Positions 12,891 to 16,237 of a stretch of DNA of 64,000 bases are shown here, one piece after another. Origin of the DNA: an uncultured SAR86 cluster bacterium (GTDB lineage: Bacteria; Pseudomonadota; Gammaproteobacteria; Magnimaribacterales; AG-339-G14). How positions within the stretch are numbered: position 1 is the stretch's first letter; the number at the start of each line of letters is the position of its first letter. The stretch spans positions 459,900 to 523,899 of the forward strand of contig CABZJI010000001.1 of the NCBI GenBank assembly GCA_902526045.1. Reading direction: 5' to 3'. Made by a program: the position numbers and the translations under genes. A model generated the notes under the pieces. It saw nothing but the letters and a program-made list of their open reading frames with translations. It made no database searches and had not been told where the DNA came from.

Positions 12891-13928
12891 ATGGAATATA
12901 GAAAATTAGGCAACACAGACATAGATGTGAGTGTTATTTGCTTGGGTACCATGACTTGGGGGCAGCAAAATACTGAAGAAGAAGGTTTTGAACAAATGGA
13001 TTACTCTGTTGATCAAGGAGTAAACTTTTTTGATACTGCTGAGTTATATTCCATTCCGCCAATGGAAGATACTCAGGGAAGTACTGAGACAATAATTGGT
13101 AATTGGTTTGAAAAAAGAGGCAACAGAGAAAAAATTATCCTCGCAACTAAAGTTGCCGGAAGAAGCGGCATGAAATGGTTCCGAGGTGGTGAAACAAGAC
13201 TTGATAGAGATAATATTACAAAGGCCATAGAAGGAAGCCTAAAAAGACTCAAAACTGACTACGTTGATCTTTATCAACTTCACTGGCCAGATAGACCAAT
13301 AAATTTATTTGGTGGAGGCCTTTCTTATAAGCATTACAATTTAGAATCAGTAGCCATTGAGGAGACTTTAAAAGTATTGGGTGATTTAGTGAAAGAAGGA
13401 AAAATTAGGTACGTTGGCCTTTCCAACGAGACCCCATGGGGCCTGTCCGAATTTATTAAGGCTGCAGATATGCATGATTTACCTAAAGTTGTGAGTGTTC
13501 AAAATGCCTATAACTTGTTAAATAGAATTTACGAAAGTGGGATGTCCGAATTTCATCATAGATCTCATGTTGGTTTGTTGGCTTATTCACCTCTTGCACA
13601 GGGATACCTTACTGGGAAATACCTTGATGGTGCTAGACCTGCTGGAGCTAGGACCACGTTGTTTGAACGAGGCCAAAGATACGAAACGGAACAAGCAGAG
13701 GAAATAATAAGGAAGTATATAAATCTTGCTAATGAGTATTCAATGGATCCTGCTTTGATGGCAAATTCATTTGTTAATGATCAAGATTTTGTCACTTCAA
13801 ATATTATTGGCGCTACAACTATGGAGCAGCTAAAGATTGCTGTTAGCAGTATTGATACGAAGCTTGATGAAGAATGTCTGAAGAAAATTGAAGAAATTCA
13901 TTACGGATGTCCAAATCCTTGTCCATGA
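12891..13928 (+). CDS. Tas-like aldo/keto reductase
   Basis: An NADPH-dependent aldo/keto reductase of 345 residues. The start at 12891 was chosen because GGAGGG lies 8-13 bases upstream and MEYRKLGNTDIDVSVICLG matches the family start; the frame is open further upstream, but that part is antisense to gpx. The catalytic tetrad is visible as Asp and Tyr in FDTAELY, Lys in ATKVAG and His in LYQLHWPDRP. Overall pattern, including SNETPWG and NAYNLLNR, follows E. coli Tas (346 residues), for which the physiological substrate is uncertain. The stop overlaps the elaA-like start as ATGA. Confidence 0.92.
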   Translation: MEYRKLGNTDIDVSVICLGTMTWGQQNTEEEGFEQMDYSVDQGVNFFDTAELYSIPPMEDTQGSTETIIGNWFEKRGNREKIILATKVAGRSGMKWFRGGETRLDRDNITKAIEGSLKRLKTDYVDLYQLHWPDRPINLFGGGLSYKHYNLESVAIEETLKVLGDLVKEGKIRYVGLSNETPWGLSEFIKAADMHDLPKVVSVQNAYNLLNRIYESGMSEFHHRSHVGLLAYSPLAQGYLTGKYLDGARPAGARTTLFERGQRYETEQAEEIIRKYINLANEYSMDPALMANSFVNDQDFVTSNIIGATTMEQLKIAVSSIDTKLDEECLKKIEEIHYGCPNPCP

Positions 13929-14377
13929 ATGAAATCATCTGGGTAGAAGGAAAATTCGAAGACCTAAGCGTTCATCAACTTTATGACGTAATGAATCTTC
14001 GCCAAGAAGTATTTTTAATAGAGCAAAATACTTCATATTTGGATGCGGATAATGTTGATCAGGACTCGTTTCATTTGCTTGCCTACATTGGATCTGATCT
14101 TCAGGGCTACAGCCGTCTAGTACCGCCAGGAATAAAGTATAAAGACGCTTCAATAGGAAGAGTTGTCTTACACAAAAAATCTCGCGGCAGAGGGTTGAGT
14201 AAAATTTTGATGGATAAATCTATCCATACATGTCATGTTCTTTATCCTGACAAAGGCATTAGAATTTCTGCTCAACATCCCTTGGTAGATTTTTATCAAG
14301 GTTATGGATTCGAAACAGTTGGAAAAATTTATGATGAGGATGGGATTCCTCATATAGAAATGGTCCTAGCAAAATAA
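13925..14377 (+). CDS. ElaA-like GNAT acetyltransferase
   Basis: A 150-residue GNAT-fold protein of the ElaA family, whose acceptor is unknown. The start MNEIIWVEGKFEDL at 13925 overlaps the preceding stop by four bases. Recognisable family segments are LRQEVFLIEQNTSYLDADNVDQ, here split by eye, the RVVLHKKSRGRGLSKILM acetyl-CoA binding loop (RGRGLS), and ISAQHPLVDFYQGYGFE near the C-terminus. It is probably cotranscribed with the reductase. Function beyond acyltransfer is not visible from sequence. Confidence 0.88.
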   Translation: MNEIIWVEGKFEDLSVHQLYDVMNLRQEVFLIEQNTSYLDADNVDQDSFHLLAYIGSDLQGYSRLVPPGIKYKDASIGRVVLHKKSRGRGLSKILMDKSIHTCHVLYPDKGIRISAQHPLVDFYQGYGFETVGKIYDEDGIPHIEMVLAK

Positions 14378-15124
14378 TTGAATATTTCTTACCTCAATTT
14401 TGGATTCTTCCTTTCATTTATTCTAGGTATAGTTTTCCTAACTTTTGATTTTTTTGAAGATATTTCTTTTCCGTCTTCAAACTGGGCAATCAAAGTTGGG
14501 GATAAATCCGTTTCCATGGAAAGTTATTTAGCTCAGATCAGTCAACTTGATTTCAATAATGACGGGCAGATAGACAGCAAACTTAAAGAGTCAGTGATTG
14601 ATCAACTTGTCATTGAGCAATTATTGATTATGAAGGCAATCGATGAGGATATTATCCAAAGTGATCCTCTATTGAAAAATAATCTAATTAATTACATGAC
14701 AAACATCATTTCAGATCAGATAATCTTGAAAATTGATAATGATGATGTAGAGAAATATTACAAAGAAAATTTAGATAAATTTTCTCAAAATAATTTGTAT
14801 TTAATAAAATCTGATAGTGAATTTATTAATTTGCCTAATGATTATCTAACAAAGCAGAAACTAAGAGACTATTTGGGAGCAGATGTAATTGGAAACATAG
14901 ATGCTCTTAAGATCGGAAGTGAAATTAAATTTATCCAAGATGATCAACCATTTAGTGTTTCTCTTATAGATAAGAAAGAAGGGGAGCCCACTCCACTGAA
15001 CTCAATATTTGACATAGTAAGTCAAGAGGCAATGAGGAGCGAAAGAGAAAAGTCTTTTAGAGAATACATAAATGAACTTAAAAAAAGTTATCCAGTTGAA
15101 ATAAACCCTATCCTGTATAAGTAA
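14378..15124 (+). CDS. Membrane-anchored parvulin-like (SurA/PpiD-type) protein
   Basis: The 248-residue protein starts at a TTG directly after the preceding stop. One hydrophobic segment (about residues 8-25) anchors it, with the rest probably periplasmic. Residues 38-125 resemble the SurA/PpiD N-terminal chaperone region (a helix-rich stretch with SVIDQLVIEQLLIMKAI). Then comes the VEKYYKENLDKFSQ linker typical before a parvulin domain, and a short, degenerate parvulin-like part up to about residue 215. Rotamase activity is uncertain. The stop overlaps the HupE/UreJ gene as TAATG, which suggests a two-protein unit in which it could help fold that partner. Confidence 0.65.
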   Translation: MNISYLNFGFFLSFILGIVFLTFDFFEDISFPSSNWAIKVGDKSVSMESYLAQISQLDFNNDGQIDSKLKESVIDQLVIEQLLIMKAIDEDIIQSDPLLKNNLINYMTNIISDQIILKIDNDDVEKYYKENLDKFSQNNLYLIKSDSEFINLPNDYLTKQKLRDYLGADVIGNIDALKIGSEIKFIQDDQPFSVSLIDKKEGEPTPLNSIFDIVSQEAMRSEREKSFREYINELKKSYPVEINPILYK

Positions 15125-16227
15125 TGAGACTTCTGTCATTGTTTCTTTTACTGACAGCCTCTTTTTTGAGCTCACATGAGCTTCAAAAACTTAACTTGTC
15201 CTTAGACTTTCTTGAATCAAGCGAATTTAAGGAAATTGACATGGATATTAAAGTGCCTCGAAACATATACAGTCCATTTTTGAAAGAAGCTCTTAACAAT
15301 GGCTTTAACCTTGATGCCTGTAACGAAGAAGATTTCGATCTAATTAATTCATCTTCGAGATACTTAACATTCAAGAAAAAAATTTCTTGCAATAATTTTT
15401 CTGGATCGCTTGAGGCAAGAAATTTTTTTTCTATATATCCAGATCAAACTATTTTGGTGAATATAAAAAAAGAGGGTAGCCTTCAAAATCAAACCTTTTT
15501 GAACAACTCTAAAAGTAAAATTGGTTTCAAAGAAGCTAATCGGAATTTTAGTTTTTTTTCATTAGGACTAAACCATTTTTTTGGGGGTTACGATCATATT
15601 GCGTTTGTTTCTCTTTTAGCCTTGCTAATCGTTGGAACAAAACAATTAATTTACCTGCTCTCAGGCTTTACCTTAGGTCACGCTATCAGCATCACGCTCT
15701 CCACCCTAGGCTTCATTTCTGTAAAAATATCAATCATTGAAATCCTTATCGGTTACTCAATATTTATATTAGCTTTCGAGTACTTAGCACTTAGACAAGT
15801 TAATAAAAATAGAATTATGAAGATAAACTTAGTATTTTGGATATCATTGCTCAGCGTTTCACTTGTCTTCTTACCAGAAATTATAGTTCTAACCATAGGT
15901 ATAGCTTTGGTTGGATTTTCTTATCCTTATTTAATTGCAAAAAATTCACTTATTAGAATTTTTGCAACGGTATTTTTTGGACTAATACATGGTTTTGGAT
16001 TTGCCTCAAACTTATCTAATTTTGATTCTCAATCACTAGTTTCATCTATTGTTTCCTTCAACTTTGGAATAGAGGCAGCTCAGATTTTATATGCTTTTTT
16101 TCTTCTCATGAGTCTTAAACTCATTGCAAAAACCAGGCTTGTAAGCAAACTATTCATAAAAGATTTTATCTCTTTGATTATTTTTTTCTTTTCTACCATA
16201 TGGTTTATTGGAAGGTTACTTTTCTAG
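15124..16227 (+). CDS. HupE/UreJ-family membrane protein with periplasmic domain
   Basis: The 367-residue protein has a signal peptide (residues 1-17), a periplasmic region to about residue 145 with two Cys (66 and 89) that could form a disulfide, and then about seven hydrophobic helices. The membrane half carries HFFGGYDHIAF (His151, Asp157, His158), LSGFTLGHAIS (His186), GLIHGFGFASNL and SFNFGIEAAQ, all family signatures. HupE/UreJ proteins have been linked to nickel or cobalt uptake. For this longer subfamily the substrate is unknown, so metal transport is inference from the conserved His/Asp residues. Coupled by overlap to the parvulin-like gene; converges on valS with a 10-base gap. Confidence 0.85.
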   Translation: MRLLSLFLLLTASFLSSHELQKLNLSLDFLESSEFKEIDMDIKVPRNIYSPFLKEALNNGFNLDACNEEDFDLINSSSRYLTFKKKISCNNFSGSLEARNFFSIYPDQTILVNIKKEGSLQNQTFLNNSKSKIGFKEANRNFSFFSLGLNHFFGGYDHIAFVSLLALLIVGTKQLIYLLSGFTLGHAISITLSTLGFISVKISIIEILIGYSIFILAFEYLALRQVNKNRIMKINLVFWISLLSVSLVFLPEIIVLTIGIALVGFSYPYLIAKNSLIRIFATVFFGLIHGFGFASNLSNFDSQSLVSSIVSFNFGIEAAQILYAFFLLMSLKLIAKTRLVSKLFIKDFISLIIFFFSTIWFIGRLLF

Positions 16228-16237
16228 AAATGAATGA

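Follow-up and report, generated by a model that had tools for sequence, protein, structure and literature searches.

A HupE/UreJ-2 permease with a predicted metal-capture domain and its co-encoded SurA-like partner with an eroded parvulin domain in SAR86 bacteria

Why would a bacterium encode a parvulin-like anchored protein and a HupE/UreJ-type membrane protein in two genes joined so tightly that the stop codon of the first runs into the start codon of the second? The question is raised by a 64,000-nucleotide stretch from an uncultured SAR86 cluster bacterium (GCA_902526045.1, contig CABZJI010000001.1, positions 459,900 to 523,899), here called the window, in which open reading frames (ORFs) and features were called, with coordinates on the forward strand (Table 1). 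A preliminary description of this sequence saw in the pair a transporter of a metal or small molecule with its dedicated assembly factor. We find that the pair is real and conserved and apparently undescribed in the open-access literature, and that each of its parts comes from a known family. The second gene likely encodes a metal permease, and the first plausibly encodes a chaperone of that permease. Taken together as one explanation, an anglerase-type metal-capture permease accompanied by a dedicated holding chaperone that has lost its catalysis is the reading that we favour, with moderate confidence.

The overlap is as it was first described, with both ORFs in place and a single shared base, and the TAA end of the first gene, the ATG start of the second and the TTG start of the first are all kept in the window and in 7/7 congeners. 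Pairing was followed in a set of 61 SAR86 genomes, whose completeness of 60-97% makes absences uncertain. HupE_UreJ_2 is present in 53 of them. The long form of the permease occurs in 29 genomes, including that of the window, and the chaperone gene lies directly upstream in all 28 others, while a short permease paralogue is preceded by a gene of the same chaperone family in 30/30 SAR86 loci (also in the nine short-form loci L059-L067, where the upstream gene was assigned to the family by sequence clustering, with two checked by Pfam). The chaperone partner was also searched for in the reverse direction, in the eight genomes without detected HupE and in six HupE-bearing control genomes of our own selection. 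It was found in 6/6 controls (E 2e-48 or better), and seven of the eight HupE-less genomes were without it (nothing in two, weak partial matches with E of at least 6.5e-6 in five). In the eighth, G018, 292 bases separate the partner from the end of its contig, and they encode the first part of a HupE; with this genome counted as discordant, the co-occurrence of partner and HupE has a Fisher p of 0.005. As a separate observation, the short HupE paralogue of one congener (L060, G001:C1, ~399521-399962) is split into two frames of 261 and 74 amino acids, which may come from faulty assembly or from decay of the gene.

Outside SAR86, the picture depends on the permease group. Among 80 loci across bacteria, the best-scoring of at least 594 contig-scan matches, a chaperone gene lies upstream on the same strand for 50/81 permease ORFs (48/79 without the two loci named SAR86, both paired), a rate that is biased, as it comes from best-scoring loci only. 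The pairs among these loci often overlap by four bases, and the paired records are named Alpha-, Beta-, Gamma- and Deltaproteobacteria, Campylobacteraceae, Bacteroidetes, Flavobacteriaceae and Vicinamibacteria. The pair also occurs in species that can be cultured, such as Hyphomonas oceanitis, Gemmobacter aquatilis and Colwellia demingiae. In an even sample of Gammaproteobacteria from outside the order of the window, with at least 500 bp available upstream, the partner is present in 5/23 loci. The preliminary description would have given up the pairing if the two genes occurred separately in most relatives; this is not so in SAR86, but it does hold in other HupE_UreJ_2 clades, as the last sample indicates. 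On a tree of 118 permeases, which includes 20 of the 67 SAR86 loci and the window, the partner label changes six times, compared with a mean of 35.2 when labels are shuffled, and none of 500 shuffles gave a value as low. The tree, built by a quick method without a mixture model and with 48 of its 114 inner branches left open, omits 11 loci (duplicates, incomplete ones and those at contig ends), two ORFs that are too short or have no room upstream, and L076, which duplicates L058. The starred 'HEVRPAYL' clade, which holds the SAR86 short form, carries the partner in 47 of its 48 rows, and the remaining one, L138, counts as unpaired though a parvulin gene lies directly downstream of it. Within a weakly supported group that joins the window to the long 'HQRSESYS' type, 23/27 rows have the partner, and the four unpaired rows are the long-branch set L148-L151. 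A chance neighbourhood was rejected on the 28/28 and 30/30 pairing within SAR86, the reverse search and the clustering on the tree, and the dedicated pairing proposed earlier thus finds genomic evidence in the SAR86 loci, the wider loci, the permease tree and the reverse search. Another observation concerns an unpaired 'HKPSDSYL' class of permeases (L089, L093, L117 and others), which adjoins DUF4331 and TPR proteins (one each identified by Pfam) and no chaperone, and which suggests a different partner set for HupE/UreJ-2 permeases.

The second gene of the pair scores 101.4 bits with PF13795 (HupE_UreJ_2), whose cut-off is 24.5, and its score to the classical HupE_UreJ family PF04955, 16.7 bits, falls below the cut-off of 23. 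In the AlphaFold2 model (predicted local distance difference test, pLDDT, 91.4; predicted template modelling score, pTM, 0.86) a beta-sandwich of about 118 residues precedes the membrane helices. Five residues of the membrane part, His134, Asp140, His141, His169 and His272 in the numbering of the mature protein, are invariant in 33/33 aligned permeases, in agreement with the conserved His and Asp residues noticed in the preliminary description; the first three form the HX5DH motif described for HupE proteins. The extra periplasmic domain with a likely disulfide, also noticed there, is seen in the model and in the cysteines, since the two Cys covary perfectly among the 33 proteins (both in 30, neither in three, a single one in none). 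The rows of this 33-row alignment were picked to begin at His and therefore do not bear on the conservation of His1. That residue is invariant in 14/14 aligned sequences, and a small residue followed by His stands near the end of the signal peptide in 67/67 SAR86 loci, representing 66 distinct places (L066 = L005). At the level of sequence, the window and all 67 loci thus have the His directly after the signal peptide by which anglerases are recognized. Neither this His nor the spread of the pair well outside this genome was pointed out in the preliminary description. In eight paired permeases elsewhere (L081, L101, L114, L120, L133, L142, L146, L147), the likely signal peptide seems to be followed by Asp (ADD, ADE or SDE) where the others have His, and these relatives must have a different capture site.

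Regarding the fold of this domain, the best VIA-align matches are ZrgA (8f1b_F, Z 11.7 over 111 residues at 3.1 A) and PA4063 (7amx, Z 11.2), followed by the copper-bound Ang-1 domain (9gce, Z 8.9 over 108 residues at 2.9 A), while the remaining chains have Z of at most 7.0. The ZrgA fold is recognized at such a score, and a shared fold alone is not membership of ZrgA. The beta-sandwich fused to PF13795 corresponds to the Ang-1-HupE/UreJ-2 architecture of the anglerases, as judged from the model, with 9gce ranking below ZrgA. The structural alignments start at residue 35 of 8f1b_F and at residue 1 of 9gce. His35 of ZrgA is a ligand of the sole widely conserved zinc site of that protein (PMC9820375), and His1 of 9GCE is a copper ligand in the crystal (PMC12537917); according to the model, His1 of the window permease is likely equivalent to these ligands. 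In sequence searches against the PDB, the permease profile gave no match at E up to 1, and the capture domain alone gave three weak, unrelated-looking matches (E of at least 0.31). DUF6702, another family of His1 metal-binding proteins (PMC12537917), is matched weakly in 3/33 relatives, with a best E of 0.006. The identification of the SHxH motif with ZrgA His184 was considered and dropped, as the weak hhalign alignment sets SHxH elsewhere.

In the first gene, the SurA_N_3 match (E 8e-6) reaches 26.2 bits, slightly below the cut-off of 27.2, and the Rotamase_2 remnant spans 24 residues at 19.5 bits, below the threshold of 27; a Rotamase_2 match at E of 0.01 or less is found in 37/38 members of the partner family, the window protein among them. 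The AlphaFold2 model (pLDDT 90.8, pTM 0.74) has an N-terminal helix followed by a SurA-like fold, and its best Foldseek matches in the PDB are LIC12922, Cj1289/PEB4, HP0175 and SurA (E 6e-9 to 6e-4), with modest TM-scores of ~0.2-0.44. The profile of the partner family matches PEB4, HP0175 and SurA also by sequence (E 6e-20 to 2e-15). The SurA_N_3 match and the fold of the model are compatible with the chaperone-like region proposed earlier, and the parvulin domain is indeed degenerate: in the alignment it is ~30-36 residues shorter than in the relatives, and the window protein has neither of two His, which occupy their columns in 12 (the first) and 27 (the second) of the 38 aligned rows and which we take to be the parvulin active-site His. 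The ratio of nonsynonymous to synonymous substitutions (dN/dS), calculated against seven congeners, is 0.19-0.22 for the first gene, lowest in its N-terminal part (0.09-0.17), and 0.23-0.26 for the second, and both genes look to be under purifying selection. The idea that the eroded parvulin domain marks a pseudogene was ruled out by a dN/dS of ~0.2 and by one common length and start in eight genomes.

The loss of the parvulin His in the genus of the window suggests holding rather than prolyl isomerisation; the chaperone would then probably be non-catalytic. Alternatively, the parvulin-like protein could be a stable subunit of the transporter, placed beside the permease and gating or docking its capture domain. 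Near-strict pairing of the genes in SAR86, the membrane helix in the model, the lost parvulin His and the partial erosion of both partners in the genus of the window would all fit such a subunit. On the other hand, the first gene has a SurA/PEB4-type fold, and such folds are client-holding clamps; furthermore, the invariant columns of the partner alignment (15 sequences) contain no His, Cys or Asp. We regard a permanent subunit as a doubtful, but still the least doubtful, of the alternatives.

According to the model with a holding chaperone, the chaperone, anchored in the same membrane as the permease and probably translated from the same transcript, would be made just before it. While the permease emerges, the SurA-like clamp, its catalysis lost, would hold the capture domain until the disulfide and the N-terminus are in place, the latter when signal peptidase exposes His1. 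In this way the chaperone could help the capture domain to fold and to stay attached to the permease, supposing that the permease is the client with which it makes contact. The product would be an inner-membrane permease for divalent metals, in which the periplasmic beta-sandwich captures a metal ion by its N-terminal His and hands it to the path of His and Asp residues in the membrane helices, presumably in the direction of import.

Several observations weigh against this model. Two permeases of the long type, L070 and L073 (Myxococcales, Deltaproteobacteria), have no partner, and neither do many other HupE_UreJ_2 proteins, including the Rhodobacteraceae type with the published Ang-1 neighbours (DUF4198, IndA and PfkB, of which one protein per type was verified by Pfam). 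Because the Rhodobacteraceae and other clades lack the chaperone gene, the partner is a mark of particular permease groups and not of the whole HupE_UreJ_2 family. Asp seemingly takes the place of His1 in the eight partner-linked relatives listed above, which means that the pairing does not depend on His1. The SHxH motif that follows FFD, of which the first His or more is kept in 16 of the 32 other rows, is lost in the clade of the window, where the site may be weaker or changed. Finally, the link to ZrgA by sequence is weak (hhalign probability 37, E 4e-4), and PF10986 was not matched in any of the 33 permease members at E up to 1.

As for the metal, the PF13795 match and the metal-capture fold agree with the earlier view that the permease is of a metal-transport kind. 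By analogy with one characterised relative, RbAng-1a, whose domain binds Cu2+ with a dissociation constant of 74 nM and Ni2+ with one of 220 nM (PMC12537917), the transported metal would most likely be copper or nickel, with zinc possible. The absence of hydrogenase and urease genes, reported earlier for the window, extends to the whole genome (93% complete), in which neither the urease alpha subunit (PF00449) nor the NiFe hydrogenase large subunit (PF00374) was found. The nickel permeases NicO and CbiM were not found in this genome either; ABC-type nickel importers were not searched for. The preliminary claim that the classical HupE/UreJ role does not explain the pair therefore stands with respect to urease and hydrogenase, but nickel is still possible, as a nickel superoxide dismutase (Ni-SOD) is present. 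A study of marine bacteria lists HupE/UreJ among nickel transporters, with highly variable neighbourhoods (PMC4771312). The Ni-SOD gene (G000:C1:620874-621248, L180) overlaps a small S24-like peptidase gene, and SodN was observed in 15/61 SAR86 genomes. The pair could thus supply nickel to Ni-SOD, that is, perform the classical HupE nickel role for another client enzyme. Such an explanation gains from the presence of Ni-SOD and the overlapping peptidase gene in a genome where NicO, CbiM, urease and NiFe hydrogenase were not found, as well as from HupE_UreJ_2 being present in 15/15 SodN-bearing SAR86 genomes. However, HupE_UreJ_2 is also present in 38/46 genomes without SodN (Fisher p 0.18, not significant), the family f2 has the long permease in 8/8 genomes and SodN in 0/8, and the genus g4 has SodN in 6/8 genomes together with the short permease only. 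Ni-SOD as an obligate client was thus not supported, HupE and SodN not being significantly linked, and we consider nickel supply to this enzyme unlikely as the function of the pair.

A third gene recurs near the pair in other genomes. DUF3604 lies within 4 kb of 30/50 paired loci and of 1/30 unpaired ones (p 2e-7, a value that overstates independence, as the loci are akin to each other), and the lone unpaired locus, L075, has no upstream sequence by which pairing could be judged. The identity of DUF3604 was confirmed by Pfam in 5/5 proteins picked from three neighbour clusters, two of them neighbours of the SAR86 short form. Invariant residues in six DUF3604 sequences include HxH, TDH, a single His and DxH, a His/Asp pattern that looks metal-binding and presumably resembles PHP-type metal sites. 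A PDB sequence search with DUF3604 returned only weak tryptase matches (E of at least 0.26). In the genome of the window there are two DUF3604 genes, neither of them near the pair. One check proposed in the preliminary description was whether metalloenzyme genes or metal-responsive elements repeatedly adjoin the pair; in other genomes a metalloenzyme-like gene, DUF3604, does so, but not in the window. A scan of the window with Rfam at gathering thresholds gave four tRNAs and no known metal riboswitch; protein-binding metal-responsive sites were not searched for. A more speculative possibility, to which we give little credence, is a metal-delivery module of three parts, occurring widely in Proteobacteria and also outside them, in which an anglerase permease would be joined by a non-catalytic parvulin that holds the capture domain, possibly in an apo or metal-accepting state and as a permanent subunit, and by an extracytoplasmic DUF3604 enzyme that would receive the metal. 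If this were true, the permease domain would be partly a metallochaperone and not an importer alone, and the SAR86 pair of the window would be a stripped-down form that kept the capture but lost the link to the enzyme.

The surroundings of the pair bear on one further alternative, that the client of the chaperone is some other operon or envelope protein (GNAT, the aldo/keto reductase or DUF3604), with the permease as its neighbour by accident. Clustering of neighbours gave the same gene order around the pair in 27 of the 28 long-permease relatives, with a reductase-type gene on the same strand at position -3 in 27/28 (the exception is L058) and, by single-linkage clustering, a gene as long as GNAT on the same strand at -2, likewise in 27/28. 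For the reductase of the window we infer a start at an internal ATG (MEYRKLG). That the chaperone gene abuts GNAT in the window, and shares one frame with it in L058, could speak for another client. Relatives of the reductase and GNAT were nevertheless unseen by clustering near the non-SAR86 loci and the SAR86 short paralogues, DUF3604 is near just 30/50 paired loci, and the permease is the constant neighbour of the chaperone, which makes a client other than the permease very improbable. With respect to L058, the loci L058:5175-6494 and L076:4626-5945, apparently from one SAR86 genome (CP097973), hold GNAT and the parvulin-like chaperone in a single frame of 439 amino acids, which may be either a fusion or the absence of a stop between genes that abut in the window. 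The 3' side of the permease is adjoined by a convergent gene of 912 amino acids, which we take to be ValS. The gap between the permease and the next gene is 10 bases in the window (16228-16237), and in 22/28 relatives it holds a small antisense gene whose product combines a probable membrane segment with a cold-shock domain (identified by Pfam in L038).

Table 1. Coordinates of the gene pair, its parts and the neighbouring upstream genes in the window (aa, amino acids).
Feature	Coordinates	Strand	Remarks
Membrane-anchored SurA-like chaperone (plausible), eroded parvulin domain	14378..15124	+	248 aa; TTG start
N-terminal membrane-anchor helix (predicted), residues 4-27	14387..14458	+	helix H3-26 of the model without residue 1
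SurA N-like region, residues 11-103	14408..14686	+	PF13624
Parvulin remnant, ~residues 119-205	14732..14992	+	some strands and helices kept; ~30-36 residues gone; His columns lost
TAATG overlap of stop and start	15122..15126	+	TAA stop 15122-15124, ATG start 15124-15126; one shared base
HupE/UreJ-2 permease with periplasmic metal-capture domain (predicted)	15124..16227	+	367 aa; PF13795
Signal peptide, residues 1-17	15124..15174	+	ends SS; predicted cleavage
His1 (mature), candidate metal ligand	15175..15177	+	
Periplasmic beta-sandwich, ZrgA/Ang-1-like fold	15175..15528	+	VIA-align to 8f1b_F and 9gce
Cys49 (mature), likely disulfide	15319..15321	+	Cys covariation
Cys72 (mature), likely disulfide	15388..15390	+	Cys covariation
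HupE/UreJ transmembrane domain	15541..16224	+	helices begin at mature residue 123, the PF13795 match at 127
HX5DH motif (His134, Asp140, His141)	15574..15597	+	start of permease domain
His169 of GFTxGH	15679..15681	+	invariant 33/33
His272 of FGLIHGxGF	15988..15990	+	invariant 33/33
Aldo/keto reductase	12891..13928	+	Pfam Aldo_ket_red 8e-68; possible first gene of a transcription unit with the pair
GNAT acetyltransferase, PRK10314-like	13907..14377	+	stop codon abuts TTG of the chaperone gene

The description of anglerase permeases in 2025 started from their capture domains (PMC12537917); to it can now be added a specific partner, inherited together with the permease in one large clade and in most members of a second group. 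It becomes directly testable how such a permease, its N-terminal metal ligand exposed, reaches its fold and is prevented from loading too early, and the pair is a candidate route of trace-metal uptake for abundant ocean bacteria (SAR86, SAR11, OCS116).

In comparison with the Ang-1-HupE/UreJ-2 proteins (RbAng-1a, 9GCE), the window protein likewise combines a HupE_UreJ_2 permease with an N-terminal periplasmic beta-sandwich and a His after the signal peptide, but its domain shares 8% identity with the 9GCE domain of RbAng-1a and is shorter (~118 versus 168 residues). The window permease also has an upstream parvulin-like gene, unlike the Rhodobacteraceae homologues with DUF4198, IndA and PfkB neighbours. 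None of these three turned up when the neighbours of 27 of the 28 long-form relatives were clustered (all but L058, whose neighbours are unclustered and unnamed), so the published Ang-1 neighbourhood is not seen there; some of the cluster names used in this comparison are presumptive. The main text of PMC12537917 names no chaperone partner, and the words isomerase, parvulin and SurA are absent from it. ZrgA and PA4063 (PF10986) are the best fold matches, with the alignment to ZrgA beginning at its residue 35; ZrgA, however, belongs to an ABC importer as a periplasmic protein in its own right and has a His-rich loop (PMC9820375), whereas the window domain is fused to the permease, has no such loop and does not match PF10986. 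With HupE of Rhizobium leguminosarum and with UreJ (PF04955), the window protein shares a related permease domain and the HX5DH motif; it differs in its extra capture domain, in its PF04955 score below the cut-off and in a genome where no hydrogenase or urease gene was found. The periplasmic parvulins SurA, PEB4 (Cj0596), HP0175 and PpiD are sequence relatives of the first gene's product and have a similar fold, and the protein of the window is distinguished from them by its N-terminal membrane helix, by its one parvulin domain, which is eroded and lacks the His pair, and by its single presumed client, encoded alongside it.

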